Shown one piece after another: positions 4,827 to 26,647 of a stretch of 64,000 nucleotides of DNA (the stretch's first letter is position 1; each line of letters opens with the position of its first letter). A model generated the notes under the pieces. The model had not been told where the DNA came from, searched no databases, and saw only the letters and a list, made by a program, of their open reading frames with translations. Origin of the DNA: Planctomycetota bacterium (GTDB taxonomy: Bacteria > Planctomycetota > Planctomycetia > Pirellulales > Lacipirellulaceae); NCBI GenBank assembly GCA_029259945.1, contig JAJDEF010000029.1, positions 1-64,000 of the forward strand, read 5' to 3'. Made by a program: the position numbers and the translations under genes.

Positions 4827-5990
4827 TCAGCAGTGATAGTGCAAACTCTCGCCTAGTAGCGGATCGCCGCTTGGAACCTGGGGTGCCTTGGCAAAGGATC
4901 GGAAGAATAGCCAGCCAAACGCGCCGATCAAAAGGCCTACGCCTGCAAGTTCCCAGATGCCGAACACGGGCGTTTTGCCAATCGTCGATGGGAAAACCAT
5001 CAGGTAGAGGTCGACCCAGCGTCCCACAAGCACAACCCACGCGACTTTCATCATCACACTCTCGCTCCGCTTGCTTGGTTTCGGCAGCAGAATAAAGAAG
5101 GGGGCGATCCAATTCAGCACGAGGTTGACCACCATCAGCGGCCCCCAAGGCCCCTGAGTCCTCGTGATGTAGTAGGACGTTTCCTCGGGCATGTTGGTGT
5201 ACCAGATCAGCATGTATTGGCTGAACCAGATGTACATCCAGAAACAACTAAACCCTAGAAGCATCTTTCCCAAATCGTGCAAGTGTTCGTCGGTAAAGAA
5301 ACCACGCAACGGGCCTCGATTACGCAGGAAGATCGCCAACACAATGATGACGGCCAAGCTTGCTTGCAGCATCCCGGCAAAGTGATAGACACCCCAAATA
5401 GTGCTGAACCACATCGGCTCAAGCAGCGAAAGCCAATCGAAACTGGCTAAGGAAAATGTGACCGCGTAGACGACGAGAAAAATGGCGGCGAGCCGTTTGC
5501 TCATGATCGACAGGCCTACGCCTCCCGTTTTATCTTGGCGACGCGACAGACCGACGAAAGCACGGGCAAAGAGAACCCAAACCACGACGTAAACAACCGC
5601 TCTTAGCATCCAGAACGACGGAGTCGCCCATAGCTCTTTGAACCAAAATGTGCCGGCATCGCCTTCACCATGCCAGTGCCAACCATAATGCTCGCGTCGC
5701 CATGCGAGTACCGTCAGCAGTCCCAAGCCAGCAGGTGCAAGCAGCACGGCCATCGCTTCAGGAATCCGGCGGAAGCCAACATTCCACGAGGCGTTGCTGA
5801 TGTAAGCCAGGGCCATGAACAGTGCGCCACCAAGACCTAGCGTGACCAGATAGAAACCAACGATCAAAAGATTGCTCCAAGTGCGTTCAGGTGCCACCAC
5901 AGCGCCGACTGCTAGGGCAATCGCTGAGATCACGGCAAGCAGAGCCAGTTTCCGAGAGGCGTTTGAGGATGAAAGTGGGGCTGGAGCCAT
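4827..5990 (-). CDS. actF: alternative complex III subunit ActF (quinol:cytochrome c oxidoreductase membrane subunit)
   Basis: A 387-residue, highly hydrophobic protein with about ten membrane helices. It has the ActF-typical stretch LSIMSKRLAAIFLVVYAVTF followed by FDWLSLLEPMWFSTIWGVYHF. In alternative complex III, ActF is the second polytopic subunit; it stabilises the membrane arm next to ActC. It is the last gene of the act set and starts 5 bases after the actE stop, so translation is probably coupled. No terminator was seen behind it. Confidence 0.88.
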   Translation of the reverse strand: MAPAPLSSSNASRKLALLAVISAIALAVGAVVAPERTWSNLLIVGFYLVTLGLGGALFMALAYISNASWNVGFRRIPEAMAVLLAPAGLGLLTVLAWRREHYGWHWHGEGDAGTFWFKELWATPSFWMLRAVVYVVVWVLFARAFVGLSRRQDKTGGVGLSIMSKRLAAIFLVVYAVTFSLASFDWLSLLEPMWFSTIWGVYHFAGMLQASLAVIIVLAIFLRNRGPLRGFFTDEHLHDLGKMLLGFSCFWMYIWFSQYMLIWYTNMPEETSYYITRTQGPWGPLMVVNLVLNWIAPFFILLPKPSKRSESVMMKVAWVVLVGRWVDLYLMVFPSTIGKTPVFGIWELAGVGLLIGAFGWLFFRSFAKAPQVPSGDPLLGESLHYHC

Positions 5991-5995
5991 GATTT

Positions 5996-6643
5996 TTATT
6001 CCGTATCGGCTTCGGCAGGCGAAGCAACAGAAGTCGTAGTAACTATTTCAGTAGGCGGTTGTGATTCATGTTGAAGACGGCGGATATGGTTGATGAGATC
6101 CCACCGACGTTCAGGCGGCAACTGAGCTGCAAACTGCGGCATGCTGTTTTGGCCATAGGTGAGAATATGGAACAGCTGTCCATCTTTCATCTCGCGCGAC
6201 TTGCCCGTCAATAAGGAGGGCGGAGGCGGGAATCCACGCTTTGCCACCGGACCGTTGCCAGCGCCATCGGCTCCGTGACACGCGACGCAAAAAGTTTGGA
6301 ACGCCGTGGCACCACGGTCGGCAGAAGCGATGCCCTCCGCCGAGCTTACCTCAAAAGGATTGGCCAACTGCTCACCAGCTCGCAGAGCGTCTTGCGGCGT
6401 TGGCTCAAAATGAAAAACTTGTGTGCCGCGTGCGATCGTGCCAGACACCGGCTGCTGCAGAGTTCGGCCGTTTGCAAAATTGCTATTCGTTGAGAACGAA
6501 CTGTAAGCGGGAGAATAGGTCATATCGTCACCTAAATTCACCTGATAATTCGGCTGCGAATGATCGACACGAAGTAGCACCAACAACGCGATAGTTAGCG
6601 AGAGGGCAAATCCCAAAAGCAAGTTGAAACGGGTAAGCATCAT
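5996..6643 (-). CDS. actE: alternative complex III subunit ActE (monoheme cytochrome c)
   Basis: 215 residues: an N-terminal signal or anchor helix (residues 5-25), then a cytochrome c domain with one heme site, CVACH at 119-123. NSMPQF further on probably supplies the axial Met. ActE is the monoheme c subunit on the periplasmic side that hands electrons out of the complex. It overlaps the actD stop by 4 bases (ATGA), so coupling is likely. Length and position between actD and actF fit the family. Confidence 0.88.
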   Translation of the reverse strand: MMLTRFNLLLGFALSLTIALLVLLRVDHSQPNYQVNLGDDMTYSPAYSSFSTNSNFANGRTLQQPVSGTIARGTQVFHFEPTPQDALRAGEQLANPFEVSSAEGIASADRGATAFQTFCVACHGADGAGNGPVAKRGFPPPPSLLTGKSREMKDGQLFHILTYGQNSMPQFAAQLPPERRWDLINHIRRLQHESQPPTEIVTTTSVASPAEADTE

Positions 6644-7176
6644 TGGAGTTCTCCCCCCGAAACAACCCGTTCCTCTAGAGCGACTAGATTAAAGGGGCTT
6701 AGCATTGCTTTGATCGTTGATACGTCGAATTGAGCGTCTGTTTCGTCGAGCAGAAGTACGAATCGATCGTCGGTCACACGTTCTAGCACCGGAAGGACTT
6801 GCTTTCCTGGAAATAGCCGCGAAACGCCTAGTAGTGCGAACACACTTCCAAACCCGGCAAATAAGACGGCCGTTTCAAAAGCCACGGGGACATTAGACGG
6901 GAGCGAGTTCCACGGCTTGCCGCCCACATCCACAGCCCAGGCCAATGCGCCTACCCAGTATTCAAACCAAAGCATTCCGAGTGCTCCTGTCATGCCACAG
7001 ACAAAACAGACCCAGGTAAGTCGCGAAGGTCTTAGTCCCAACGCTCGGTCGAGGCCGTGTACGGCGTAGGGGGTGTAGGCGTCGATGATTTTGCATCCTT
7101 TTTTGCGTACGACTTCGACCGCATCTAGCAGGTCTTCTTCGTGCTCGAAAGTCGCCAATAACATTCGGTCGCTCAT
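6640..7176 (-). CDS. actD: alternative complex III subunit ActD (DUF3341)
   Basis: 178 residues. A soluble N-terminal part ([21 protein letters not shown], then [20 protein letters not shown]) leads into two membrane helices at about 56-72 and 98-118. This is the DUF3341 layout of ActD, a cofactor-free subunit that packs against ActC and ActF. It overlaps actC by 4 bases and actE by 4 bases. Confidence 0.88.
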
Positions 7177-8600
7177 GCTGCATCTCCTTTTGAAGAGTCT
7201 TGCTTAGCAGCACGACGCGGATTTTTTAATACGCCCTTCACCTCAGCCATCGCAATGGTCGGAAGGAAACGACAGAACAGAAGGAAGCAAGAAAAGAAAA
7301 GTCCAAAACTGCCGATCAGCGTCGTAATCTCAATAATGGTGGGAGTGTAGTCGGCCCAACTCGAGGGCAAAAAATCGCGGTGCAAGCTGGTGACTATAAT
7401 CACAAAGCGTTCGAACCACATGCCAATGTTGACCACAATGCTGATGAGAAAAACAAAGGCGATATTTCTGCGCAATGGCCGGAACCAAAGAAGCTGAGGA
7501 ATCATGACATTGCAGGAAACCATCGTCCAATAAGCCCAACTAAACGGCCCCGCCGCTCGATTGAGGAATACAAACTGCTCGTAAGGATTCCCGCTAAAAG
7601 CCGCAATGAAGAATTCAGTACCGTAAGCCAACCCCACAATGCAGCCCATCGAGAGCATCAGTTTGCACATCGTTTCGATATGAAGCACCGTGATGTAGTT
7701 TTCCAGCTGCATGACTTTGCGAGCAATGATCATTAAGGTAAGCACCATCGCTAGGCCGCTAAAAATGGCTCCGGCCACAAAGTAAGGCGGGAAAATAGTG
7801 GTGTGCCAACCGGGAATGATGGCCGTCGCAAAGTCCATGCTGACAATCGTATGCACCGAAAAAACAAGCGGCGTCGCTAGACCGGCCAGCAGCATGTAGA
7901 CCGTTTCGTAGCGATGCCAAGTACGCGCTGACCCAACCCAGCCCAAGCTAAATATACCCGCGAGACTTTTCCGCCAACCCGGTTTCGACCGATCGCGGAT
8001 GGTGGCCAGATCAGGGATCAAGCCGATATACCAAAAGACGGCAGAAATCAGCAAATAGGTTGAGATAGCAAATACATCCCAAAGCAGTGGCGACTTGAAG
8101 TTGATCCACAGCGAGCCGCGGGTATTCGGGTAAGGGGCCATCCAAAAGGCCAACCATGGGCGTCCCATGTGAATCACGGGAAACAGGCCCGCACAGACCA
8201 CGGCGAACAGGGTCATCGCTTCGGCTGACCGATTCACCGAGGTTCGCCATTTCTGTCGAAACAAAAACAGCACCGCTGAGATCAGTGTGCCTGCATGGCC
8301 GATCCCTACCCAAAAAACGAAATTCGTGATGTCGAATGCCCAACCAACCGTTCGATTTAATCCCCAGGTGCCTATGCCCATGGCGATTTGGTAGGTCACT
8401 GCCACGACACCCGCAAGGAGAGCAGTCAACGAGATTGAGAGAGCCCCCCACCATAAAGCGGTAGGACGGCCCTCCATCGGAGCGCAAATATCGCGAGTAA
8501 CATCCGCAGGTGTTTTACCTCCGGTGATCAATGTTGGTCGAAGCAATTCGGATGCTTCGGTCGCAGCAGGTTCTGGTTGTTGCTGCTCGGTCTCAGCCAC
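7173..8600 (-). CDS. actC: alternative complex III subunit ActC (NrfD/PsrC-like quinol-binding membrane protein)
   Basis: 475 residues with about ten membrane helices in the NrfD/PsrC fold. It includes [19 protein letters not shown] and [21 protein letters not shown], which are typical of ActC. ActC binds menaquinol or ubiquinol and passes electrons to the iron-sulfur subunit. I chose the GTG start at 8600 because GAGGAG lies 7 bases upstream; it overlaps the actB stop by 8 bases (GTGGCTGA). An in-frame ATG 21 bases upstream is possible but has no better ribosome site. Confidence 0.88.
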
Positions 8601-11600
8601 GGTGAGGCTCCTCATCTTCATTCTTCACAACTCGCAAATAAGAAACCGAAGGACGCACGTTGAGTTCTTCCAGGACTTCATAACGCCGCGGGTTTTCCAG
8701 GGCGGCGTGAATTTTGCTTTCGGTATCGTTCATGTCGCCAAATACGATCGCGTTGGCGGGGCACGACTGCTGGCAAGCCGTTTGGATGGTGCCATCGGCG
8801 ACGGGCAGGCCTTGGCTACGGGCCTCGATTTTTCCGGCCTCGATTCGCTGTACGCACATCGAGCACTTTTCCATGACACCCCGCGAACGGACGGTCACTT
8901 CAGGATTTAAGACAAGATTTTGCAGCGAATCGTCGTGTTCATACTTAAACCAGTTGAACCGCCGGACCTTGTAGGGGCAGTTGTTGGCGCAGTAGCGAGT
9001 TCCCACGCAACGATTGTAAACCTGCTCGTTGAGCCCCTCGCTGCTATGGACGGTCGCCAACACTGGGCAAACCGTTTCGCAGGGGGCATTGTCGCAATGT
9101 TGGCACATCATCGGTTGATGGTCGATGCTCATCGCCTCGCCTTCACCCGTAAAGTACCGATCGATACGCATCCAATGCATTTCGCGTTGGCGACGAACCT
9201 CGTCGTACCCAACCACTGGCACATTGTTTTCTGACTGACAGGCAATCACACAAGCAGAGCAGCCCGTGCATTTGTTCAGATCGATCACCATGCCCCAGGC
9301 ATGCCCCGTTTTGGCATGATCTTCTGGCCACAGCTGCGCGCCTGTTTCGTGATGATGAACGGCGGCACCGGCGTGTGAATCTTTAGCAAAGGCGGCAAGC
9401 GTCGTGTGTTGGACGATCTCGCGTCGTTCGGCACCATGGGGTGCAACTTCGGGTGGAACCTCAAGCGAATTGTATAACTGTGTTGACGCCAGATCGCGCC
9501 GTTTTCCTGTTTTGGTTAGCGTGACAGTAGACCGTGTATGCTGCATCGTCCCGTTACGAAACTCGACGAAGGGGGCAGCATTTTTTCCAACCAATTCATT
9601 TTCCTCGACGGTCGGTCTGGCTTCGAACCATTGGGGCCCAATCTTCGCAAAGCGATCGGTGCCTTTGCATCCGTATGCCAAGGCGACGGTCAACACTTGA
9701 TCGTGCTGCCCGACCTGGACGAGAACCGGCAATTCGAGCAGAGGCGCTTCGTTACCTGCCGCGACTTGGACGATATCACCGTCTACGAGCCCAAGTTCCC
9801 TCGCATCGTTCGACGAAACACCAACGTAGTTGCCCCAAGTCACCTTGGTAACCGGATCGGGAAGCTCGTGCAGCCAAGGATTGTGTGCGTGTCGAGCGTC
9901 TGGCATCGATACTTTGTTGTACAAGACCAACGAAAAATCGTTCGTTGTTGTTTGCTGGGCCAGAGGTTTTATGACACTCGTATCAAAATCGCTGACAACG
10001 GTCCCCGCTCCTCTGGTTTCGATGAACCCATCTTGCAGTGATTTTTCCCAGAATGTGATAAATTGATTCGGTGTTTCGGCCTGACGGCGCGGAAAGATCG
10101 CCTCTTTCCAATGCGTCTGAAGGGCTTCGTAAGCCGTCGTCGGCCGAGCAGACCAAGCAGCAAGACTTTCTAATACCGACCGCGTATCACCGAGCGGCTG
10201 AAGCGTCGGTTGTGCGAGACTGATCAAGCCGTCGACCGGCTCGGCATCCGACCAGGATTCGAGTGGGTGATGATCGGGGCAAATATATTTGGCGAGCGTG
10301 GCAAATTCATCTTCTCGTTGCGAAAAACTAATCGTGAGCGGAACCCGGTCAATTGCATCGACCAACGTTTGTTGACCGGCAAGATCGTGTAACAGATCGA
10401 CATCGGCAACTAATAACGCACCAACTTTTCCAGCTCTCAGCTCCTCAACCAATTGTTCGACATCACGGTCGTTGCCTTGCCGCTGTCGACTGGGCCGTTG
10501 GAGGCCGAGCGTAGATTCGTAGTTGCCCAGCATGTGATTGGTGGCATTGACCAACCGTTGCACGCCCACGTCTTGGCTGTCGCTAACGACGAGACACTTC
10601 CCACGGCCATTCCAAAGTCGCTGTGCCAGTTCGGCAAGAGCAGACTCGTGGCGATCCACTATGTTTGGTGATAAAGGCTCGCTGAGAGAAATGCCTGCTA
10701 ATTTCGACACCTTTTCTGTTAGCTGTGCTATTAACGGGCCCTGGTCTTGCGGGTGGATGGCAACACGTAGATCAGCGTTGGTGCCGGTCAACGACATGCG
10801 GCTTTCGAATTGGACGTGGTAAGACATCTCTGGCACTTGCTCGCTGGGAACACGCCTTGTCGACCAGTCAGAAGTGAATTCGACCGGTGAAATCCAGGTG
10901 CCAAGAAAATCAGCGCCAAACGAAACCACCACTTCGGCACGATCGAATCGATAGTGGGGTAACACACGCGTTGAATGGGTTTGCTCGTGGGCATCGAGAA
11001 TGGCCGACGAACTGACCGCGTCGAACACAATATGTTTCGAATCTTCAAAAGGGGCGAGAAACGCGTCGATATTTGCCTTGAGCGTTGGGCTCGTGATAGT
11101 GGGCGTGACAAAACGGATGGCCGTTTGCTTCTCATTGATTTGCTTGAGTGTTTGAACAATTTCTTGATCAAGGGTCGTCCACTGCGCAGGTTTGCCAGCG
11201 CTGAGAGGCCCGGTCAGCCGGTGGCTGTCGTACAACCCGATCGGCAGCGCCTGTCCAACGGCACAAAGCCCGCCGCTCGAAAGTGGGTGCCCCGGCAGTC
11301 CTTCCATCTTTAATGGCCGACCATCGCGCGTTCCGACAAGCAGCCCGCATGCAGAAGGGCAACCTGCACAAGTCGAGGCATAGTATTGCAGCTGTCCCGG
11401 GATCGCTCCGACGGGCTGAATGGGTGAGGGCAGTGCGGTTTCGACAGGTGCCCGTCCACAACCACTCATTGCCGCAAGCGAAAGTGAGAAGCCTGCCGCT
11501 TCTAAAAATCGACGCCGACTGATAGCTAAGGATTCCTCGAGCAACGGTCCAGCAGCCTCCACAATGGGCAGTTGCCCTTGGGAGCTGTCGTTGTTCGATG

Positions 11601-11625
11601 GAGTATTTTTTGAAAGCGGTGTCAT
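8593..11625 (-). CDS. actB: alternative complex III subunit ActB (TAT-exported molybdopterin-like / iron-sulfur fusion)
   Basis: 1010 residues. A twin-arginine motif ([21 protein letters not shown], residues 36-56) may combine TAT export with lipid anchoring. A molybdopterin-oxidoreductase-like domain follows and opens with C-x2-C-x3-C (CAGCPSACG) and a distal GGLCAVGQA. From about residue 780 there is a four-cluster ferredoxin domain: [46 protein letters not shown] and [11 protein letters not shown]. ActB carries electrons from ActC quinol oxidation to ActA. I chose ATG at 11625, just after the actA stop; the longer frame upstream would overlap actA and bury the signal peptide. Confidence 0.9.
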
Positions 11626-11644
11626 TCGTATTCGTTTCACAAAT

Positions 11645-12298
11645 CTAGTGGTGGCATACGGTGCAGTCGGTCGAGGCATGGACTTCGTGTCCATTGATGC
11701 CATCGCGAGTCGCTTCGCGGTGGCAGTTGACACACCAACCCATCGAGAGCGTGGCGTGCTGCCTGACCCGCTCCATCGATTCGATTGGGCCATGGCACTT
11801 TTGGCAGCTCACCCCCACGGCGACATGGGCCTGATGGTTGAAGCATGCATAGTCGGGGAGGTTATGGACTCGCACCCAAGGAATCGATTGCGACGTGACG
11901 CCATCAATGGGCTGAAAGTTCTCATCCAGCGCCAAAGCATCGTAAAGTTTCTGGAGCTCTGTCGAGATGATGGTCTTAGGTTTGCGTTTTTCTTCATCCG
12001 CCAGATGCATCTCCTGTTGCATTGCGTCGAACGGTGCGGTGACATAGCGATGACATTTCATGCAAACGTCGGACGAAGGAATGCCGGCATAGCGGCTCGA
12101 CTCGGCGGCCGAATGACAAAACTTGCAGTCGATTTGTAGCTCGCCCGCATGAAGCCGGTGCGAGTAGGCGATCGGCTGCTCGGGAGCATATCCCTGTTGA
12201 TTGTCAGGCATTCGCCACTTGCCCATTGCCGACACCAGCAGCGCAAGGCCAAAGCATAATCCAACCAGTAACGCAATTGTTATGACTCGTTGTTGCAT
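11645..12298 (-). CDS. actA: alternative complex III subunit ActA (pentaheme cytochrome c)
   Basis: 217 residues with one N-terminal anchor helix and five CXXCH heme sites: CKFCH, CMKCH, CQKCH, CVNCH and a terminal CTVCHH. This is the ActA pattern, the periplasmic pentaheme subunit that takes electrons from ActB iron-sulfur clusters. It is the first gene of the act set and lies 40 bases after the stop of an upstream narK, with no promoter or terminator evident between them. Confidence 0.92.
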   Translation of the reverse strand: MQQRVITIALLVGLCFGLALLVSAMGKWRMPDNQQGYAPEQPIAYSHRLHAGELQIDCKFCHSAAESSRYAGIPSSDVCMKCHRYVTAPFDAMQQEMHLADEEKRKPKTIISTELQKLYDALALDENFQPIDGVTSQSIPWVRVHNLPDYACFNHQAHVAVGVSCQKCHGPIESMERVRQHATLSMGWCVNCHREATRDGINGHEVHASTDCTVCHH

Positions 12299-12338
12299 GA
12301 CTTATTTTCTAGCTCTCGATAATCCGCTCTCAGCTCTT

Positions 12339-13934
12339 CTAACAATTGATCTCGGAACCTTTTCGAGCGTAGAACCACCAATTCACCAGCAGACAACTGG
12401 CGTAATAGACGGCGAATCCGTAGAGGGCGTACTCGGGTGTTTTGGCTTTAATCTGCGTTGCAAAAATCTTGGGAATCAAAAATGCACCGTAGGCCGCAAT
12501 GGCAGATGTCCAAGCCAAGACGGGCCCCGCTTGTTCCTTGGAGAAAATGAAAGGGATCATCCTAAACGTTGAACCGTTTCCGATACCGGTCGTTGCAAAC
12601 AACACGATGAAGGTTAGCAAGAACGGGATAAAGTACTTTTCGGGTGTCTCGCTCTGCCCGGCGAGCGAAACGAGATAGCCCGCCAAGATGGTCGATCCCA
12701 CCATGATCCAGGTATCCCACTGAGTCACGCGTGCTCCACCCAACTTGTCAGACAACCATCCGCCCACGGGCCGAATCAACGCCCCGACAGCTACGCCGAT
12801 CCAGATATAGTTTGAAGTCACCAGGCCATTAGTCGGCGTGACAAAGATGTCGTCCAATAGTTTTGGGAACGCGGCAGCATATCCGATGAACGAACCGAAC
12901 GTCATCGTATAGAGCCACGTCATAACCCAGGTATGTTTGTTTTTGAAAATCGAAAATTGACTTTTAAGCGGCTCTTGGATCGGTTTGGGGGTCAGAAATC
13001 GCATCATCAGCAGCGTGGAAATCACAGCAGCCAATACGACGAAAAAAATACGAACTAATTCGGGCATAAAACTAATTTTGACAAACAGCAAAAGAAACAC
13101 GCCGATACCAGATCCGATGAATCCGATCAGTTCAAGCCATAGATACTTGCTAATGGCAACTGGTGCCGAGCCGCATGGGTGTTGCGGAAGATTGTTCATC
13201 AGAAACCATGCCATCACGGCCAACAGCGTCATGACCGGAACCCAAACGAGTGCCGCATTTTGGATCCAGAGCTGCTGGACCTCGCCGCCTTTGAAAAATT
13301 CCTGAGGCTCTCCCCCAAAACTTCCAAACATCCCGAACGTGATCACAAAGGGGATCAAGAACTGCATGACACTGACGCCCAGATTGCCCAGGCCCGCATT
13401 CAGCCCCAACGCCAACCCTTGCATTCGCTTGGGAAAGAAGAACGAAATGTTCGACATGCTCGACGCAAACGCCCCGCCGCCGACACCCGACATCGCGGCG
13501 AGTAGGATGTAAACCCAAAACGGCGTTTGCTGACTTTGCATGGCAATACCCGTCACTAGGGCGGGTAAAATCAGCAGAACCGTGGTCATAAACTTGACGT
13601 TGCGACCGCCGCAAATGGCGATCATAAACGAATTCGGTATTCGTAAGGTTGCGCCAGCAAGGCCAGCCACCGCAGGAAGGGTGTACATCAGTGCTTTGTA
13701 GTCGTCATTAGAAAAAGCTTCGCCGCCATTCCATGCGGCGAAGCTAAACAGGTCAGCATTCGCGAAATGCAAGGCCTGCATGGTTTTTGCGAGCATTCCC
13801 CAATACAACCAAACGGCAAATCCGCATAGCAGATTGGGAATCGAGACCCACAGATTCCGATTGGCAATCGATTTACCCGTCGAATCCCAAAAGGATTGAT
13901 CCTCGACATTCCAGTGTTCAGGTGTACGGGCCAT
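12339..13934 (-). CDS. narK: nitrate/nitrite transporter, NarK family (MFS)
   Basis: 531 residues with about twelve helices. Nitrate-transporter signatures are visible: RIPNSFMIAICGGRNVKF, then GLNAGLGNLGVSVMQFL, and GNGSTFRMIPFIF in the second half. It probably exchanges or imports nitrate and nitrite at the inner membrane, serving the cytoplasmic NarG active site. It lies between a second NarK-type gene and actA, all in one direction, and links the nar and act gene sets physically. Confidence 0.9.
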   Translation of the reverse strand: MARTPEHWNVEDQSFWDSTGKSIANRNLWVSIPNLLCGFAVWLYWGMLAKTMQALHFANADLFSFAAWNGGEAFSNDDYKALMYTLPAVAGLAGATLRIPNSFMIAICGGRNVKFMTTVLLILPALVTGIAMQSQQTPFWVYILLAAMSGVGGGAFASSMSNISFFFPKRMQGLALGLNAGLGNLGVSVMQFLIPFVITFGMFGSFGGEPQEFFKGGEVQQLWIQNAALVWVPVMTLLAVMAWFLMNNLPQHPCGSAPVAISKYLWLELIGFIGSGIGVFLLLFVKISFMPELVRIFFVVLAAVISTLLMMRFLTPKPIQEPLKSQFSIFKNKHTWVMTWLYTMTFGSFIGYAAAFPKLLDDIFVTPTNGLVTSNYIWIGVAVGALIRPVGGWLSDKLGGARVTQWDTWIMVGSTILAGYLVSLAGQSETPEKYFIPFLLTFIVLFATTGIGNGSTFRMIPFIFSKEQAGPVLAWTSAIAAYGAFLIPKIFATQIKAKTPEYALYGFAVYYASCLLVNWWFYARKGSEINC

Positions 13935-14013
13935 GGTTTCTCACTTTGGTTGGTTGTTTGTCATCTTTGAGTTTTTAGGCGAACTTTCATTTCATCTGTC
14001 GTGGTATTCGAGT

Positions 14014-15801
14014 TCAAAGTATTTGCGGTTCCTTTTCCTCATCGAGACGCATCAGATGGTCGAGCGAAAGTGGACCAGATCCCCGCCATACAAACAAAAC
14101 GAGCGAAAAGAAAACAAACGACGTGAATTGAAAATCTACATTCGTTCCGAGTAAGCTTCCTTCAGCAGAAGTCATTGAAAGGGCGGTAACTACTGCGCCG
14201 AAGAGGATCACGGCATTAGCTGCAGCAGCCACTCGCGTGACGAATCCAAGAAAAAGACTTGCGCCGCCAATCACATGGGCGAATACCACCGACCAAGCGA
14301 TCAGCGTCTGTCCCTCGCCAAGCCCATCGCCCAACGTGGCTTCGAGTTCATTCATATTCAAAATGAAATAGATGCCCTTAATGAGCAGCGCCACACCGAG
14401 ATAGATTCGCAAAGCATCCATTGGGCGAAGATGTCGAATTCCCGGGACGAGATCTGCGATGGGAACTCGGTCCTTGAGTTCTTCGCGTCGACGGGCCATC
14501 GCCAAGTCAAATTCCGAAGCGGCGGCCTTTTCGTCGGCCTCGCTAAATCTCACTAGGAAGGTGAAGAAGGCACAAACACTTACCAAGCCTCCTAGAATCA
14601 TCAGCGCCTGGGGATAGCTGAGGCTTTCAGACCGAAACAAAAAACCTGCGAAGACGGCACCCATGTTGCCCCCGGCGCCAACAATGCCAGCAACCGATCC
14701 AAGTGCCTTCTTATTGATGAAGGGAACAATCGAGTAAGTTGCCCCCTCAGACATCTGCGTAAAGAGGCTGAAGAGAATCATTGCAGGAATGGCTAGAGCA
14801 AGCACGCGCATCTGAGAAAAGAGCAAGAGTGCAAACCCCTCGATCAACAAGGCGATAAAGAGCCATCGGACACGTCCCTTCAAGCCGTGGTTTTGCACAA
14901 ATTTGTCACTGATAAAGCCGCCGAGCGTTCGCGCGAAGATGTTCATCAGACCGAACAGCCCCGCAACGAGTCCCGCCGTTTTGAGCCCGAGATCGAAATA
15001 GTCCATATAGTAGATTGCGGCGATATTGTTGATCGTCAGCTCAATGCCAAAGCACGCGGCATAGACAAAGAAGAGTGCCCATACCCGGTAGTCCCGTGCC
15101 GCCAGCCAAAACGACCCCTTGCCCGTCTCGGTCTCTTGTAATTCACCCGAAGCGCGTAGCTCTTTGAAATTTCCGTCTGGTAAGTCGGTGGTAAAGAAGA
15201 AATACGCGATACCGGTTATGAAACAAACGGCACCTGCAGCGACCATCGAAAGTCGCCATGCAGAGGCCTCCAGATATCCTAGGCCGACAAACCCGGCAAA
15301 GACCAGCGGCATGATCATCTGAGTCACACCGCCACCCAGATTGCCCCACCCAGCACTGGTTGCATTGGCTGTACCAACCACATTCGGAGCAAACATCACG
15401 GAAGTGTGATACTGGGTGATGACGAACGATGCGCCAATCACCCCAATGCCAAGTCGAAACAACAGGAAAGATTCATAACCGTGCGACAGACCGATTGCCA
15501 TTACTGGAAGAGAGCCTACCAGCAGAAGAACCGTGTAGCACAGTCGAGGGCCAATACGGTCGCAAAGCCAGCCAATAATCAGTCGCGCAATGATGGTGAT
15601 GGCCACCGAAGCAATGATCGTGTTACCGATTTGTTGCTTAGTCAGACTCAGCTCTTCACGTACGATCGCCATCAGCGGCGCAATGCCAAACCACGCAAAG
15701 AAACACAAAAAGAAGGCGAACCACGACATGTGGAATGCCCGCATTTGCGGAGTCTTCAGCGAAAATAAATCGATGCGGGTTGCTTTGTTACGAACTTCCA
15801 C
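14014..15801 (-). CDS. NarK-family nitrate/nitrite transporter fused to a C-terminal DoxX-like domain
   Basis: 595 residues. Residues 20-420 form an MFS transporter with NarK features (FRLGIGVIGASFVITQYHTS, GWGNLGGGVTQ). After a charged linker (about 421-455), residues 463-580 add four more hydrophobic segments with LGVALLIKGIYFILNMNELE and HVIGGASLFLGFVTRVAAAA, the pattern of DoxX-type four-helix membrane proteins. The reading frame is continuous, so this is a true fusion rather than two genes. DoxX relatives act near quinones in other systems; what the domain does here is unknown. The gene starts 4 bases after the narI stop. Confidence 0.82.
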   Translation of the reverse strand: MEVRNKATRIDLFSLKTPQMRAFHMSWFAFFLCFFAWFGIAPLMAIVREELSLTKQQIGNTIIASVAITIIARLIIGWLCDRIGPRLCYTVLLLVGSLPVMAIGLSHGYESFLLFRLGIGVIGASFVITQYHTSVMFAPNVVGTANATSAGWGNLGGGVTQMIMPLVFAGFVGLGYLEASAWRLSMVAAGAVCFITGIAYFFFTTDLPDGNFKELRASGELQETETGKGSFWLAARDYRVWALFFVYAACFGIELTINNIAAIYYMDYFDLGLKTAGLVAGLFGLMNIFARTLGGFISDKFVQNHGLKGRVRWLFIALLIEGFALLLFSQMRVLALAIPAMILFSLFTQMSEGATYSIVPFINKKALGSVAGIVGAGGNMGAVFAGFLFRSESLSYPQALMILGGLVSVCAFFTFLVRFSEADEKAAASEFDLAMARRREELKDRVPIADLVPGIRHLRPMDALRIYLGVALLIKGIYFILNMNELEATLGDGLGEGQTLIAWSVVFAHVIGGASLFLGFVTRVAAAANAVILFGAVVTALSMTSAEGSLLGTNVDFQFTSFVFFSLVLFVWRGSGPLSLDHLMRLDEEKEPQIL

Positions 15802-15805
15802 GGAG

Positions 15806-16498
15806 TCACCTTGTTTTTTCTCGACGACTATACCAACGCACCACTTGCGGCTTACGCCACAGATAGGGGTTGGGAATCACAAGGACGTGAACTAAACGAG
15901 TAAACGGAAAGAAACCGATCGTTAAAAACGCCAAAACAACATGTAACTTGACCACCCAAGGCATCGCGGCAACGAATGTGACGTCGGGGGCGAGTTTCAT
16001 AATCGACCATAAATACGGCGACATGTTGGTCGCGAACCACGAAGAACCCCAAGGATAAAACAGGGCGAGACTCACGCCGCTCGCGGTTTGCACTAGCAGC
16101 ATAAGAAACAGTATCCAGTCGGTTGGCGTGGTTACGATACGCACTTTGCTACTACCTAGTCGTCGGACGATCACCCCCACGAGGCCGATGAGTGTCAGGA
16201 TGCCAAATGCAAGAGCAGAAATTTCCAACACATAAAGCCGCCACGGCACGCTGTTCCAAGCAAGCAGCGTCCGCGGAATGAGGAACGCAAGAAAATGTCC
16301 CGCGGTGACCACCAAGATGCCGTAGTGAAAGGGCACGACCGCCCAAAAATGGTGTTTGTTTTCTAGAAACTGGCTCGACAGGCTCGAATAAGAAAACGAT
16401 TGTGCCCGATAGCGATAAATCGTCATCAGAAAAAACGTAAAAAGGCACACGTACGGAAGTGCCACAAACAGGAACTGATCGAAAAAGTGTTGGCTCAC
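15806..16498 (-). CDS. narI: respiratory nitrate reductase gamma subunit (cytochrome b)
   Basis: 230 residues, five membrane helices. Histidines in FHYGI and GHFLAFLIP in one half, and KLHVVLAF and RLVHVL in the other, fit the two heme-b ligand pairs of NarI. NarI oxidises quinol and feeds NarH. It overlaps narJ by 4 bases. Length matches E. coli NarI (225). Confidence 0.93.
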   Translation of the reverse strand: MSQHFFDQFLFVALPYVCLFTFFLMTIYRYRAQSFSYSSLSSQFLENKHHFWAVVPFHYGILVVTAGHFLAFLIPRTLLAWNSVPWRLYVLEISALAFGILTLIGLVGVIVRRLGSSKVRIVTTPTDWILFLMLLVQTASGVSLALFYPWGSSWFATNMSPYLWSIMKLAPDVTFVAAMPWVVKLHVVLAFLTIGFFPFTRLVHVLVIPNPYLWRKPQVVRWYSRREKTR

Positions 16499-17283
16499 TT
16501 CAACCCCCCGTCAGGTGTATCACGTATTTCAGTCGGGTGATTTCCGGGCTCTGAATATTGAAGCTGGAGCGGCACGATTTCCACCTGACCACAATTCGAG
16601 GTCGGCATCGGGTAGGAACGCAACGGATCGTCGCTGCCTGGTTGGCGAGGGCCATTTTGCCCGGGGAAGGCGTCGGTGTTGCTAAGCATTTTTCCGTCGT
16701 TCTCTCCCCATGGTTTGCTGGGGCCGTATTGCTGTTCGAGCACGTCCAAGAGGCACCGAACGAGATGTCGATAAGGCGATTCGTTTTTGTCTAGCGACGT
16801 TTGCATCTTGTGAAGCGCAGGAAAAACACATGCGTGTGAAAATTGACTCGCTTCGTCGTCTGGCATCGCGGCAATAACTGCCAGCACATGGGCCAAATGA
16901 TCGGGCAGTTCGGTCGATTCGGGAATCTCATACTTTGCCAATTCGCCACGCATTCGCACCAAAAATTGGCCACGCATATAATCTTCGCCAAACAGATGCC
17001 AGCCAATCTCTAAAGCACAGGAAGGATTTACGTCGAAGGTGCGCGTGTACGTCTCCTCAAGTTCATGCCCCTCGCACTGCTCAACAAACTGGCCAAACTC
17101 GGAAATCCCTTTCGCCGCGTCTGGCAATTCGCCCTGGACGATGAGGTAAAGCAGCTCGACCAACTGGTCGTAGTGTTCGTCGGGATAGCTGAGGAGTCGG
17201 CTAATCGTCCCAAGAATGCGCGCCTTTTCAGAAACAGGTTCTTCTTCAGGTGCGATCGCTTCGATAATCGGTAAATCAGTCAT
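16495..17283 (-). CDS. narJ: nitrate reductase assembly chaperone (delta subunit)
   Basis: 262 residues, all-helical TorD/NarJ type, with ILGTISRLLSYPDEHYDQLV near the start and DVNPSCALEIGWHLFGEDY in the core. NarJ binds apo-NarG and helps insert molybdenum cofactor; it is not part of the mature enzyme. The start codon overlaps the narH stop (TGATG). The C-terminal tail (from about residue 200) is Pro/Asn/Gly rich and longer than in E. coli NarJ. Confidence 0.92.
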   Translation of the reverse strand: MTDLPIIEAIAPEEEPVSEKARILGTISRLLSYPDEHYDQLVELLYLIVQGELPDAAKGISEFGQFVEQCEGHELEETYTRTFDVNPSCALEIGWHLFGEDYMRGQFLVRMRGELAKYEIPESTELPDHLAHVLAVIAAMPDDEASQFSHACVFPALHKMQTSLDKNESPYRHLVRCLLDVLEQQYGPSKPWGENDGKMLSNTDAFPGQNGPRQPGSDDPLRSYPMPTSNCGQVEIVPLQLQYSEPGNHPTEIRDTPDGGLK

Positions 17284-18776
17284 CAGCCTCCCCTTTGTGG
17301 TCCGCCGACAAAGCCAAAGCCTGCCTCAGCCCGTTGTTCATGTGGTTCTTTGACCATCTCGATGGCTTGCTCGCGATACATGGGCGGAATCACAAAGCGG
17401 TCTTCAAACGTGCACAACGAGGTGAGCTTGTAGATTGCTTCAGCTTCTTCAACTGTGCAATTGGCCTCTCGAAGAAATCGATCAGCCGTGGCACGGTCGA
17501 CATCGCCAACCGTCTCGGCGCGTCGATGCCAACGTACAGCCAGTTGTTTACCCATCGCGTAGCGAACAACGCCTTCGTGCCCGCCGCCAAACAGGTTGGC
17601 GAAATACTGCATCGGAATACGTGATTCGTCGATGCCGTGAAACAGACCCTGCATTTTGTGAGTTGCCAATCCGTCTTCAAAGTTCGCGATCACAGGCGAC
17701 ATTGGCGGCACATAGAAGAGCATAGGCAACGTGCGATACTCAATATGCGGCGGCAGCGCGATTTTCCAGTCCATCACAAATTTGTAGACAGGCGATTGCT
17801 GAGCCGACTCGATCACCCCGTCGGGAATCCCCGCCGATTGCGCTTTGCGTATCACCTCAGGGTCGTGTGGATCGAGAATCAGCGACCGATGTCCATTCAC
17901 CAATTCTTCGTCGGGAAGATTGGCAACCTCTTCCAGACGATCGGCATCGTAGAGCAGCACACCCAGATAGCGAATCCGCCCCACGCAAGAATGGAAGCAG
18001 GCGGGCGCCTGTCCTGTCTCGAGTCGCGGGAAGCAAAGGATGCACTTTTCGCTCTTGCCGGTAAACCAATTGAAATAGGTTTTCTTGTAGGGGCAAGCCG
18101 ACACGCAACTCCGCCACGCCCGGCATTTTTTCTGATCGATCAGAACAATCCCATCTTCGCCTCGCTTGTACAACGCCCCAGAGGGGCACGATGCCACACA
18201 ACAAGGATTCAAACAGTGATTGCAAATTCGTGGTAAGTAAAAAAGTACCAGCCGCTCGACCGAGCTAAGTTGCAGGCGTTGCTGCTCGGAAAGCCCCGCT
18301 AAGTTTGGATCGTTTGCCGCATAGATTTGCGATCCACCCAGGTCATCGTCCCAGTTAGGACCGGCTTCGACTTTGATATCTTTGCCAGTAATCATCGAAA
18401 TCGGTTTGGCGATGGGCTGGTCAGAACCTTCTTCGGCGTTAAATAAATTCTGATAGTCGTAGGTCCATGGCTCGTAGTAATCGTCCATGCTAGGCATGTG
18501 CGGATTATGAAAAATATTGGGGATGACCCTCGCCTTGCCGGTCGACTTGATGTGGATCGGCTGGTCCCCATCCTTTTCCCACCCGCCGTGATACTGCTCC
18601 TGGTCTTCCCATTGGGTCGGATAGCCCGTCCCCGGCTTGGTCTCGACGTTGTTCCACCACATGTAGTCCGCGCCCTTGCGGTCGGTCCACACGTTTTTGC
18701 AGGCAACGCTGCACGTGTGGCACCCGATGCACTTATCGAGGTGAAACACCATAGAAACTTGGGAACGGATATTCAT
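17283..18776 (-). CDS. narH: respiratory nitrate reductase beta subunit (iron-sulfur)
   Basis: 497 residues. All four ferredoxin-like cysteine groups are present: CIGCHTCSVACKNVW, CNHCLNPCCVASCP, CRAWRSCVSACPYKK (Trp in the group that makes the [3Fe-4S] cluster) and CILCFPRLETGQAPACFHSC. NarH passes electrons from NarI hemes to NarG in the cytoplasm. There is no signal peptide. It follows narG after 21 bases. Confidence 0.95.
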   Translation of the reverse strand: MNIRSQVSMVFHLDKCIGCHTCSVACKNVWTDRKGADYMWWNNVETKPGTGYPTQWEDQEQYHGGWEKDGDQPIHIKSTGKARVIPNIFHNPHMPSMDDYYEPWTYDYQNLFNAEEGSDQPIAKPISMITGKDIKVEAGPNWDDDLGGSQIYAANDPNLAGLSEQQRLQLSSVERLVLFYLPRICNHCLNPCCVASCPSGALYKRGEDGIVLIDQKKCRAWRSCVSACPYKKTYFNWFTGKSEKCILCFPRLETGQAPACFHSCVGRIRYLGVLLYDADRLEEVANLPDEELVNGHRSLILDPHDPEVIRKAQSAGIPDGVIESAQQSPVYKFVMDWKIALPPHIEYRTLPMLFYVPPMSPVIANFEDGLATHKMQGLFHGIDESRIPMQYFANLFGGGHEGVVRYAMGKQLAVRWHRRAETVGDVDRATADRFLREANCTVEEAEAIYKLTSLCTFEDRFVIPPMYREQAIEMVKEPHEQRAEAGFGFVGGPQRGG

Positions 18777-18797
18777 AATTCTTTTTCCTGGAGCACT

Positions 18798-21700
18798 CTA
18801 GAAATTTACGACGGGGCACTTTCGGATGATGATATGCGTGTCACGATTGCAGCCGATTGGGCCCCAATAGTTAAAGTGGTAGGTAAATTGCCCATAGCCG
18901 CCGATCATAAAATTCGGTTTCAAACGTGTTCGCGTAAGACTATTGTGTCCCCCGGCACGTCGGTTTTTTCTGAGTGGCGATTTCGGCACGCTGTAGGTGC
19001 GCTCAGGTGCGTGGTATTGAATGCCGATTCCCGGAGGAATACGTGAACTGACCGCCGCGCGAGTGACCACCACGCCGTTGTCGTTGTAAACTTCCACCCA
19101 ATCGTTGTCGTCGATTTCGAGTAGCTCAGCATCTTGTACGCTAATCCAAATCGGATCGACGCCGCGCGAGAGCGTGGTCATGCGCTGGTTATCGCCGTAA
19201 GTCGAATGGATGTGCCACTTGCCATGCGGAGTGAGATAGTTGAGCGTCAAAACCTTCGAATCACTCGGTGCCTCGCCTTCGCTGAAAGTGAGGTCTGCGT
19301 ACTGCGTAGGCAGCGGTTTGGGCTTGTAGGTCGGTACGTGCTCGCCAAATTGAATGTAGACAGGATGATCGAGATAAAACTGTTGCCGACCGGTGAGCGT
19401 CCGCCAAGGGACGTCGGATTCGAGGTTGTAGGTAAACGCCGAATACGTGCGGCCATTCTCGATCAGCCCCGACCACATGGGGCTGTTGATAAACCGTTGC
19501 GGCTGACATTGCAGGTCTTCATAAGAAGCACGAACACCACGGTTTTTCTCGCCCAAATGGGCGAGGGGGACTCCCGCCTTTTCCTCCATGTTTTTGTACG
19601 AGCGATATGCCAGCTCGCCATTCGTGACGGTAGCGAAGTGTAGAATCGTATTGCACACTTCGGTGTCACGGCGCAGTGATGGATAGGTTCCCCCCCCCCA
19701 ACTGACGGTGGGATGCGTTTCAAGGTACTCGTCGTACTCGTCCTTGATCGAGTAGCTCGTCCCATGTGCACCCAGTCCACCCTCACGCACATTCGGCCCG
19801 TAAGAAATGAATTGGTTGAACAGATTTTTGTAATCACGGGTCACAATTTTGAAGTTAGGCATCGTCTTGCCTGGGATCGCGTCGACGCCGCCATCAATCC
19901 ACTGCTTCATGTTGGGCTGCGCAATCTCGGCAGGCGAATCGTGCGCCAGCGGCACTGCCACCAAATCTTCGACCGGTTCGGGGAAGTGTTTTTCAGAAAG
20001 CTCAGAGAACTTTTGCGCTATGAGTTCAAAAATTTGCCAATCGCTTTTCGATTCCCAGGCGGGAGGCACCGCCTTCGACAGCGGATGAATAAAGCTGTGC
20101 ATGTCGGTCGAATTCAAATCGGCCTTCTCATACCAAGTCGCCGCAGGAAGGATGATGTCTGAATAAAGCGCCGAGGTATCCATCCGGAAATTAAGATCGA
20201 CGACCAAATCCATCTTGCCTTGCGGCGCGTTCTCATGCCATGCAACTTCCTTCACCGAATCGGCGGCCATGTCTTCGTTCACACAGTTATCGTGCGTGCC
20301 GAGGTAATGCCGCAAGAAATATTCGTGCCCCTTCGCACTCGACATCAGGGCGTTACCACGCCAAATAAACCAAACCCGTGGCCAATTGTCTTCTGCGTCG
20401 GGATCTTCCACCGAGAACTTCATGTCCCGGTTTTTTAGCCGATCCGCCACCCAATTGGCGATATCCTCCGGCGACTTTGCCCCGGACTCGCGCGCGGCAG
20501 CGGCGACTTCGATCGGGTTCTCTGGAAATTGCGGATAGAAAGGCAGCCAACCGTTTCGCACTGCGCGGACTTGCATGTCCATCGCATGGCCTTGCGCCAT
20601 GTTGTCTTTGTCACGCTGTTTAGGGACGGTGTGGTAGTCGGTGAAATCTTTTTCGTAACGCCATTGATCGGAATGGACGTAATGCCAACTGGGGGCATTT
20701 TGAAAACGAGGTGTCGAACACCAGTCTTTACCCGACATGATCGACGCCCACGATTCTGCCGGGGCGAGCTTTTCTTGACCCACATAGTGGGCGAGCCCGC
20801 CGCCATTCTTGCCGACACACCCACAGAACATCAGGGCGTGGATCCCGGCGCGATACATAAGATTGGCATGGTACCAGTGGTTGATTCCGGCACCGATGAT
20901 GATCGTACACTTGCCTTCCGTAAGCTCTGCCGTTTGGCCCCATTCTCGAGCGAATCGAATCACATCTTCACGGCCACGCCCGGTGTATTTTTCGGCCCAT
21001 GCGGGAGTAAAGGGGGCATTCTCGTCGTTGTAATCGATAGGGTAATCGCCTGCCAAATCACGATTCACGCCGTACTGGGCCATCATCAGGTCGTAGACCG
21101 TAGTGACCTGCACTCGCTCGCCATCGATGGTCTTAATCGTCCGAGTCGGGACGCCGCGCTGGTAGACTGTCCCCATGCCGAAGTCGTCGAGTTCGACTTG
21201 TACGACCCCGTCATTCTTGGACAGAAAGGTGAGCTCAGGCTGAATTTCACTGCCGTCTTTGCCGTCCTGTAACAGCAGGTTCCACTGTCCTTTGACATCA
21301 CCCCAGCGGTGACCGGAACTGCCCATCGGCATCTTCGGTGTGCCGGTCTTTTCGTCCCACATCAAAAACTTCCACTCGCCATGCTGCTCGTCGGCATATT
21401 GCTTGAGGCGACCCGCGCGAAGCAACTGCCCCGGACGCATGACACCATCGTCGTCCTTTTTTAGCTCTACCAAATACGGCGAGTCGGTGAATTTACGTGT
21501 GTACTGGTCGAAGTAGGGGACCGTTCGCTGGTGGTGGAACTCGGTTAACAACACATGGTTGACTGCCATCCACCAAGCGCCGTCTTGGCCGGCATTCACA
21601 TCGATCCACTCGTCGGCATACTTCGAAACCTGGCTGAAGTCGGGTGAGAAAACCCACATCTTCGAACCGTTGTGTCTCGCTTCGGCCGCGAAATGGCAGT

Positions 21701-22457
21701 CGGGCGTGCGGGTCATGTTGATATTCGACCCCATCACTGCCAGCAATTTCGCGTGATACCAATCAGCACTCTCGGCGACGTCGGTTTGCTCGCCCCAGGT
21801 TTCCGGCGAAGCGGTGGGCAGATCGCAATACCAATCGTAAAACGACAGCGAGACCCCGCCCAACAATTGCAACAGCCGCGAACCCGATGCGTAGCTAATC
21901 ATCGACATCGCAGGAATCGGCGAGAAGCCGGCAATGCGATCTGGCCCATGTGATTTGATCGTATGGACCAACGACGCCGAGATAATTTCCAAAGCGGTTG
22001 CCCAATCGGTACGCCGCAGTCCGCCTTTCCCTCGCGCCCGCTGCCAACGGCTACGCGATTCAGGATTTTCGACCATGCTCTTCCAAGCATCGGCTGGGTC
22101 TTGGTGATCGGCCTTGGCCTTACGCCACAGGTCTAAGAGCGCCCCACGGATATAGGGATATTTAATGCGAAGAGGGCTATAGAGGTACCAGCTATAGGAG
22201 ATACCCCGTTGGCAGCCGCGTGGCTCATACGGGGGAATGCCAGACTCCAGCAACGGATAGTCGAGCCCCTGCATTTCCCAAGTGACGATCCCGTCTTTCA
22301 CGTAAATCTGCCAAGTACAGCCGCCGGTGCAATTCACGCCGTGCGTGCTGCGAACGATTTTGTCGTGCTGCCAACGATTGCGATAGAACTCCTCCCAACT
22401 GCGACCTTGGGGGTTCACTTCATCGCGGATCCAGGCAACCGCGTCCAATACACTCAT
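18798..22457 (-). CDS. narG: respiratory nitrate reductase alpha subunit (molybdopterin)
   Basis: 1219 residues. The FS0 cluster ligands are H39, C43, C47 (in [17 protein letters not shown]) and C82 (EPRGCQRG). The molybdenum-ligating Asp is expected at D212 in DWYCDLP, which is conserved, followed by TWGEQTDV. It reduces nitrate to nitrite. There is no twin-arginine leader: the protein begins [18 protein letters not shown] and aligns with the cytoplasmic E. coli type, so the active site is most likely in the cytoplasm. It overlaps the upstream cytochrome gene by 4 bases (ATGA). Confidence 0.95.
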
Positions 22458-23437
22458 GATTTACCTCGAGACGAATTCGCTTCCACGAGCGATCTACGCA
22501 CACCGTGGAAACGTCGCTTCCATAGGGCGTCAAGAAAGAAAACTCCGATGACTGCCCCAGCTAGGCCAGACAATAAGAACGCTACGCGACCGGTTGAGGA
22601 GTCCGCAGGTTGCTCGGCCGTCGTCGATTCGAAGTAGGCGACCAGTGCGTGAATCTCATCGGTAGACAACGGGCGATTCTTAAAAATGGGTTGCATCGTC
22701 TCGGTTCCCGGGGCTACCAACCATGCACTCAGCGCAGCCCGTCCCTTGAGACGTTCGTAAACATTGGTTAAATCAGGTCCTAGTTGACCACCACCTAAAG
22801 CGGACAGGTCATGCATCGCGTGACACGAAACACAAGCAGTCCCACCAGCTTCTAATCGTTGTGGCCCAAGAAAAATATCTCGGCCGCGCGTTCTGTCTGC
22901 ATCGGTGAAGGGCGCCGTCGAAATCTTTAGACCCTTGAACTGCGACTCTTCGAGCTGCGACTCGGCTTCGATCAAGTCGAGCAAATTTTCAGCGCGCTCG
23001 AGGTTAATACCCGGCGGTGTCGGCATGGGAATGTTACGCGACTCTTCAAAGATTTTTTTCGCGTAAGCATCGCCACTCTCGATTACGGCGCGGGGGTCCA
23101 ACAGGAATTTAATAAGCCATTCCCGATCTTGTCTCTTGCTGACATCTTTCAAGTCAGGACCAGTCAGCCGCCCGCCGCCAATGGTGTGGCAGTTCACGCA
23201 GTTCTGGCGGAAGTAGTCTGGCGTATCCTGGGCATGCGCCAACGTCGATAGAAAGAGAGGTGGTACGCACAAACAGAAGACAGCAAACAGGGCTCGACGC
23301 AAGAAACACCCACCCGCGGTCCCAGCCAAAATGCCGTCCCCAACCTCCATCTCAAAGGGGCGGGGTCGAGCTAGTATGCATGGGGGGGTAGATGGTAGGA
23401 GAAGCTGGTTTTCAAGGGTATTTGACGTGAATAACAT
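22454..23437 (-). CDS. membrane-anchored diheme cytochrome c, NarC-like
   Basis: 327 residues, or fewer if a later start is used. There is a hydrophobic signal at about 48-69 ending ALA-like (THAQ region), then two cytochrome c modules with CVNCH (80-84) and CVSCH (202-206). A C-terminal helix at 285-305 is followed by a basic tail. First gene of the nar operon. Thermus nar operons also begin with a diheme cytochrome c gene (narC), which supports the name by position and layout. The ATG at 23437 has GGGGAG about 10 bases upstream; starts at residue 30 (ATG) or near residue 46 (TTG) are possible and would give a more normal signal peptide. Confidence 0.75.
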
Positions 23438-24107: not shown

Positions 24108-24158
24108 TGAGAATCGAGAAAACACAAACCACTGGCTTATAGAAATGGAGGTGCTTTG

Positions 24159-24767: not shown

Positions 24768-24839
24768 TAGGTCGATAGTCCTAAGCCGACGACCGGCAGG
24801 ATTTTTTGTTGACAAGGCCGTATTCATTTCTCTTGCACG

Positions 24840-26630: not shown

Positions 26631-26647
26631 GAAAATGAGGTGCAGCG

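Follow-up and report, generated by a model that had tools for sequence, protein, structure and literature searches.

Genes for a NarC-type nitrate reductase joined to those of alternative complex III in a planctomycete, a linkage that recurs in other families and phyla

A planctomycete gene cluster in which a nitrate reductase (nar) is followed directly by alternative complex III (ACIII, act) is described herein and read as a probable module for nitrate respiration. The window, that is, the whole stretch of 64,000 nucleotides analysed, covers positions 1 to 64,000 of contig JAJDEF010000029.1 (assembly GCA_029259945.1) from a Planctomycetota bacterium of the Lacipirellulaceae. Thirteen genes, all on the minus strand, occupy positions 4827-23437 in the order narC, narG, narH, narJ, narI, narK1, narK2 and actA to actF. 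From narC to actF the intergenic gaps measure -4, 21, -1, -4, 4, 79, 40, 19, -29, -4, -4 and 5 bases when actB is taken from the methionine at 11625, a range of -29 to +79 in which the widest gap separates the two narK genes. These coordinates and gaps agree with the first-pass annotation, which had described thirteen tightly spaced genes on one strand with 79 bases between the narK genes. Counts of promoter-like sites between 4600 and 24200 (6, against 12.6 in shuffled sequences) and of terminator-like sites (27 against 24.5) were of no help either way.

The upstream part of the cluster encodes a nitrate reductase of the NarC, or Thermus, type, with narC placed ahead of narGHJI. NarC (22454..23437) is a diheme cytochrome c with a C-terminal membrane helix, two CxxCH motifs and a match to PF00034. 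It is followed by the alpha subunit NarG (18798..22457; TIGR01580, 1467 bits), at whose N-terminus no twin-arginine signal was seen on sequence inspection, the beta subunit NarH (17283..18776; PF13247, PF14711), the chaperone NarJ (16495..17283; PF02613) and the cytochrome b subunit NarI (15806..16498; TIGR00351). In NarI the positions of all four haem histidines of Escherichia coli NarI are kept, and Lys86 is replaced by Arg. NarK1 (14014..15801) is a major facilitator superfamily nitrate/nitrite carrier fused to a C-terminal DoxX domain (PF07690, PF07681; TIGR00886), a fusion that recurs in another family (L059:3900-5693), and NarK2 (12339..13934) is a carrier of the NarK/NarU type (TIGR00886, 263 bits, NarU model).

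The six genes that follow encode a complete set of ACIII subunits. ActA (11645..12298) is a pentaheme cytochrome c with five CxxCH motifs and 6btm_A as its best match in the PDB. ActB (8593..11625; 6btm_B, 6f0k_B) joins a molybdopterin-like part to an Fe-S part and carries an extra four-cysteine motif; it matches 6f0k_B over 87-1059, with the two domains fused as in ACIII, and PF04879 at 136-183 of the open reading frame. This frame is open from 11793, inside actA, and the methionine at 11625, 19 bases past actA, is the likelier start. ActC (7173..8621) is the NrfD-type quinol-binding subunit (6btm_C, 636 bits; 6f0k_C, 621 bits), ActD (6640..7176) matches PF11821 with 166 bits, ActE (5996..6643; PF13442) is a monoheme cytochrome c with one CxxCH, and ActF (4827..5990; 6btm_F, 6f0k_F) is a second NrfD-like membrane subunit. 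Pfam and NCBIfam profiles identified NarG, NarH, NarJ, NarI, both NarK-family carriers, ActD, the NrfD-type ActC and the fused Fe-S ActB, and the A, B, C and F chains of the solved ACIII were the best matches of ActA, ActB, ActC and ActF, respectively. With actA to actF in order in a single cluster, five haems in ActA and one in ActE, a fused ActB and the functional residues of ActC in place, the complex is by its sequence an ACIII, for which quinol:cytochrome c oxidoreductase activity is predicted. Of the 23 ActC residues that make up the quinol site and half-channels in Rhodothermus marinus (listed in PMC8076601), all 23 are kept in the window, and these columns are invariant in 14 nar-type ActCs. 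Because of this conservation, quinol oxidation and proton translocation are probably retained by nar-type ACIII.

A different identity has been proposed for the same six genes. In the account given in PMC10732223, nar lies upstream of them at 13 instances in metagenome-assembled genomes (MAGs) of Planctomycetota and KSB1; the six are said to match no described complex, and a nitrite reductase or a respiratory role is offered. A membrane-bound NrfAH-like nitrite reductase would suit the position after nar, the multiheme cytochrome and the NrfD-type subunit. However, ActA, ActB, ActC and ActF match chains of the solved ACIII, ActD matches its Pfam family, all 23 quinol-site and channel residues are kept, and the match of ActA to a NrfA structure is marginal (E 4e-4), which leaves such a reductase hardly credible.

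Conservation of the linkage was examined in 294 genomes sampled from the phylum; ActD is present in 161, and 77 match NarI at 1e-3. Strong NarI matches (E 1.5e-35 or better, one of them partial) came from 45 of the 77, and weaker rows were set aside. When these 45 genomes were sorted by hand from the NarI and ActD tables, nar and act were found to be linked in 25, spanning 13 family codes, with NarI and ActD on the same contig and strand and 5.3-9.8 kb apart. Since the linkage recurs to this extent, chance is excluded. Nine genomes were unsettled (contig ends, or a place of ActD that was not printed), one has no ActD, and the remaining ten are weighed below. Strong NarK2 matches were obtained in 18 of 97 relatives searched, and actA adjoins in all 18; ActD was found in 15 of them, the contigs of the other three ending within or near act. 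Within the genus itself, ActD occurs in 8/8 genomes with strong NarK2, and none was found in 4 of the 6 without it. The linkage pointed out in the first-pass annotation is thus present, rather than absent, in close relatives. Furthermore, NarC adjoins NarG in 20/20 upstream stretches; among 13 unlinked nar stretches it does so in eight, and a contig end cuts the remaining five. The gene narK1 stands downstream of actF in eight planctomycete loci, and no carrier above 100 bits was found between NarI and actA at L057 and L080; carrier genes on either side of act are as expected of one functional unit.

The arrangement also extends beyond the Planctomycetota. A scan of named genomes with the 14 nar-type ActCs gave, as the best 80 of at least 584 confirmed stretches, 70 from Bacteroidota, three each from Planctomycetota and Acidobacteriota, two from Myxococcota, one from Elusimicrobiota and one unclassified. 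Eight of these best 80 have nar next to act: three are from Bacteroidota, two from Myxococcota and one from Acidobacteriota, one is unclassified, and the last, a planctomycete stretch, is the locus also numbered L054. A NarC scan of viral contigs gave four pattern matches, none of them confirmed.

Nar-linked ACIIIs form a group of their own. The window and 120 fetched stretches were annotated and classed by their neighbours, giving 50 cox-linked, 42 nar-linked, 6 weakly NarI-like and 23 with neither, and no match to the COX1 and COX2 queries was found in any of the 42 nar-linked planctomycete stretches. An ActC tree with 111 rows shows a group (support 98) that contains 36 nar-linked, 6 NarI-like and 12 unclassed rows; all 50 cox-linked rows lie outside it. 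With named loci added, 42 of 43 nar-linked and none of 65 cox-linked rows fall together (support 95), and the ActB tree gives 45/46 and 0/63 (support 93). The first-pass remark that no oxidase gene is present was borne out, none having been found in the cluster, and oxidase-linked ACIIIs sit in other clades. Three genomes with two ACIIIs (G176, G100 and G016) have one copy beside nar and one beside cox. Nar-linked ACIIIs of Bacteroidota cluster with those of planctomycetes, apart from the oxidase-linked ACIIIs of Bacteroidota, and this placement points to transfer of the module or to an old duplication. In a joint ActB and ActC tree built by a fast method, the fork joining the nar-type and Bacteroidota groups has a support of 11, and no rooting is therefore drawn. 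In a tree of NarH, linked nar is partly interspersed with unlinked nar (six label changes), so that nar itself is not a separate linked lineage. Distances in the NarH and ActC trees correlate over 41 linked loci (Pearson 0.83), a value that shared species history alone could yield. All 50 nar-linked ActA rows, one locus being counted twice, have five CxxCH motifs. At L128, L131 and L148, where nar-type ACIII was found and no nar was seen, ActE has seven CxxCH motifs, and at L131 the complex adjoins ferredoxin-type and membrane Fe-S proteins.

The clade is further marked by a four-cysteine motif, C-x2-C-x3-C-x(20-40)-C, in the first domain (B1) of ActB. Among ActBs 700 residues or longer, the motif is present in 43 of 46 nar-linked rows as against none of 100 cox-linked rows; it also occurs in 6/6 NarI-like rows and in 6/6 unclassed planctomycete rows of the clade, as against 0/5 outside it. 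The three motif-less nar-linked ActBs belong to one family (f43), two motif-less rows of the clade (L181, L196) come from contigs that begin inside the gene, and one Bacteroidota row outside the clade with neither neighbour (L214) has the motif. All four cysteines are invariant in eight ActBs of several phyla. In hand-picked sets of 16, PF04879 (molybdopterin Fe4S4) was matched by 14 nar-type and no oxidase-linked ActBs, PF01568 by 10 and 2, and PF00384 by three in each set; no molybdenum site is claimed for nar-type ActB. With its own clade and its own motif, nar-type ACIII appears to be a hitherto undescribed variant of the established complex. Four-cysteine motifs of this kind are usual in the enzyme superfamily of ActB, and for this reason the nar-type may represent the older state, from which the oxygen-linked type would be derived by loss. 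In R. marinus, the B1 domain is described as lacking a prosthetic group, the last [4Fe-4S] cluster lies near the surface, and the role of three clusters (FeS2-4) is called elusive (PMC5928083). The extra motif may bind a cluster that would extend such an Fe-S wire. An AlphaFold model of ActB from eight sequences reached a mean pLDDT (predicted local distance difference test) of 44 and was unusable.

The position of Lys86 in NarI is occupied by Arg in every one of the 50 linked rows (49 distinct loci). Unlinked planctomycete NarIs also have Arg there in 11 of 13 rows, the other two having Phe. A lost NarI quinol site, considered as proof of a NarC-fed enzyme, was rejected on these 11 rows, and because the unlinked rows share the change, it marks NarC-type Nar in the sample and not a tie to ACIII. 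In genomes of family f26 (L085, L086, L122, L123, L124 and L153), where nar lies elsewhere, the gene immediately ahead of actA is NarI-like, and a diheme cytochrome c is encoded upstream. In all six, the equivalents of E. coli His66 and His187 are histidines, and those of His56 and His205 are not. The kept pair is presumably that of the periplasmic haem and the lost pair that of the haem facing NarH. A NarC/NarI-like pair working with ACIII alone would fit this pattern, although the alignment is weak in this region.

The source genome (G000; 3.48 Mb, 44 contigs, 92% complete) bears on where the electrons of ACIII might go. The first-pass annotation had suggested looking for a second act operon beside cox genes, and the profile search gave a single ActD. 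The COX1 family is represented by one match only, a NorB that bears a cytochrome c-like domain and is encoded on another contig, where a gene for a RepC-type replication protein also lies (L007:1626-3080); this nitric oxide reductase (NOR) is read as quinol-dependent from its domain type. Neither an oxygen-type oxidase nor a bd oxidase was found in this 92% complete assembly. Because Rieske, cytochrome b and octaheme cytochrome genes adjoin one another, a separate nitrite branch is possible, and nitrite may be served through that group. At two loci of one genome (L008:6235-9710 and L009:6554-14211), Rieske and cytochrome b genes stand beside multiheme cytochromes; the octaheme protein at one locus belongs to the multi-haem family PF13447, and the other locus has 14- and 9-CxxCH proteins.

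Divergent from the cluster lies a gene for an Rrf2-family protein (23601..24107, plus strand; PF02082, TIGR00738), a candidate regulator of the nar-act genes. It heads a unit (23601-27013) with hemerythrin, B12/radical SAM and DUF7670 genes. The corresponding unit of G300 (L161:1744-9133) encodes Rrf2, a nitronate monooxygenase-like protein, hemerythrin, radical SAM, MobB and a NorB with a cytochrome c-like domain. A role in nitrate and nitric oxide respiration fits these contents.

It was initially suggested that ACIII feeds periplasmic nitrite, nitric oxide or nitrous oxide reductases through cytochrome c. The hemerythrin-containing divergent unit, joined in G300 by a quinol-dependent NOR and MobB, would agree with this, as would the octaheme cytochrome of the source genome and, in two f43 loci, a divergent gene of the oxidase superfamily that follows act. 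However, among the 34 linked genomes used for respiratory gene counts, NirK was over the model cut-off in none, with 7 partial matches (NirS and NrfA were not searched), and NosZ in none, with one long match below the cut-off (G005) and short C-terminal stretches only in 19 genomes. Moreover, the NOR of the source genome has the quinol-dependent domain type, and the octaheme gene of that genome has a Rieske and cytochrome b of its own. The suggestion is thus weakened to the point of being quite improbable. The opposite direction of flow is more improbable still: Nar would act as a nitrite oxidoreductase passing electrons via NarC to an oxidase, and ACIII would run backwards to reduce quinone. 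A NarC-like cluster is described as operating in this way in Nitrobacter (PMC7694296), but no oxygen reductase was found in the source genome, NarG lies far over the cut-off of the nitrate reductase model (sequence does not tell direction), and the neighbouring genes suggest nitric oxide and nitrate reduction.

A broader alternative is that ACIII is a general complex III that reduces cytochrome c for a distant oxygen reductase, its position beside nar reflecting joint regulation at low oxygen. In the solved structures ACIII is paired with an oxidase, as described in PMC5928083, and an oxygen-type COX1 row is present outside the cluster in 32 of the 34 linked genomes, so that ACIII may serve an oxygen oxidase too; the two without are the source genome and G199, which has fragments and NOR-like rows only. 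This and several further observations weigh against a dedicated nitrate module. In G158, genes for COX1 and COX2 precede narC by some 3.8 kb on its own strand (L166:10443-13100), and in five instances described in PMC10732223 the cluster is followed downstream by oxygen reductase genes. In two of three loci of f43, the family whose ActBs lack the four-cysteine motif, a divergent gene of the heme-copper oxidase superfamily follows act and narK1 (L056:1427-3034, L059:1620-3029; PF00115, 45 bits). Nar and ActD are at separate places in 10 of the 45 strong-NarI genomes, four of which belong to f26; the other six have oxidase-linked ACIII (L081, L084, L089, L092, L094, L096), and a second ACIII copy in G240 (L088) has weaker COX matches. 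One nar-linked locus (L053) falls outside the clade in both the ActC and ActB trees, two clade members (L128, L131) are without nar, and NarC does not need nar-type ACIII, since NarC-type nar also occurs without it. Against the general role stand the absence of a detected oxygen-type or bd oxidase in the 92% complete source genome and the different clade of the oxidase-linked ACIIIs. Furthermore, bc-type cytochrome b is present in 34/34 linked genomes (bd oxidase in 5/34) and, after NOR-like, weak and fragmentary COX1 rows had been dropped by hand, lies within 15 kb of the oxygen-type oxidase in 21 of the 32 genomes that have one; oxygen thus often has its own quinol oxidase. Taken together, a general complex III is considered unlikely.

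The reading preferred here is that the cluster is a co-inherited, dedicated module for nitrate respiration that pairs a proton-translocating quinol oxidase with a NarC-type nitrate reductase; a probability of roughly two in three is assigned to it. What is observed is the make-up and order of the cluster, its recurrence in different families and phyla, the separate clade of its ACIII, the kept quinol-site and channel residues and the extra ActB motif. In such a module, the cluster would be read as one transcript, the NarK carriers would transport nitrate and nitrite, NarC-NarGHI would reduce nitrate, and nar-type ACIII would oxidise menaquinol and translocate protons for the nitrate branch instead of for an oxygen reductase. 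Electrons might leave ACIII via the ActA and ActE haems and reach the diheme NarC, then NarI, NarH and NarG. NarC is favoured as the acceptor because the oxygen branch is often equipped with a quinol oxidase of its own and because NarC was the cytochrome c partner at every locus where its place was readable. Exchange between ACIII and NarC, the other possibility raised at first, is in this respect favoured, NarC adjoining NarG in every upstream stretch, and the electron route itself, taken alone, is a tentative proposal with the odds somewhat against it. On the NarC route, ACIII and Nar would be the nitrate counterpart of the ACIII-oxidase pair. A more ambitious version, rather doubtful at present, envisages a cytochrome c-fed nitrate respirasome in which a pumping ACIII delivers electrons from ActA/ActE to NarC, NarI and NarGH. 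If true, one quinol would drive two coupling sites, nitrate would take the place of oxygen in an ACIII supercomplex, the B1 cluster would lengthen the [4Fe-4S] wire of the solved ACIII, and the nar-type would be the older state, the oxygen-linked type being derived by motif loss.

ACIII is usually thought to serve oxygen breathing; here it is paired with a nitrate-breathing enzyme in many families and several phyla. The nar-act linkage is already in print in PMC10732223, though not as ACIII, and one of the MAGs treated there, OFTM341, is L185, the same locus as L054 with the same arrangement. Beyond that account, the six genes are identified here as ACIII, with a clade, a motif and a spread across phyla. 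In the literature searched, outside which most subscription journals lie, no other report of the linkage, the nar-type clade or the ActB motif was found. The nar context of ActB disagrees with the statement in PMC10100899 that ActB belongs exclusively to aerobic respiration, on which a dating by oxygen is built; this premise becomes testable through a nitrate-linked clade that spans several phyla and has a conserved Fe-S motif. PMC9386147, for its part, allows ACIIIs away from oxidases that serve periplasmic acceptors. In addition, the ActB motif and the narC-act order provide sequence marks for separating nitrate-branch from oxygen-branch ACIII in metagenomes.

Among known systems, the planctomycete Thermogutta terrifontis, as described in PMC5673643, similarly has a complex III gene set adjoining nar; unlike in the window, this set is bc1 in place of ACIII, and no NarC was found there. 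The narCGHJIKT cluster of Thermus thermophilus likewise begins with the diheme gene narC, followed by narGHJI and carriers. According to PMC7694296, physical contact between NarC and NarI has been shown in Thermus, and an electron branch through NarC is proposed to stand in for complex III. In contrast to the window, Thermus has no ACIII with nar and represses complex III under nitrate, and the adjacent nrc NADH dehydrogenase and dnr/drp regulators described there were not found at the window cluster. Closest in the complex itself is the oxidase-linked ACIII of R. marinus, with which the window shares six subunits in order, a pentaheme ActA, cysteines for four Fe-S clusters in ActB2 and all of the listed ActC residues. 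It differs from this solved complex in having nar upstream and no adjacent oxidase genes, in its separate clade, and in a B1 domain with the four-cysteine motif and PF04879 where that of R. marinus is without a cofactor. Nar-type ActB is therein a natural variant that may give the FeS2-4 wire, whose role is called elusive in PMC5928083, an end point.

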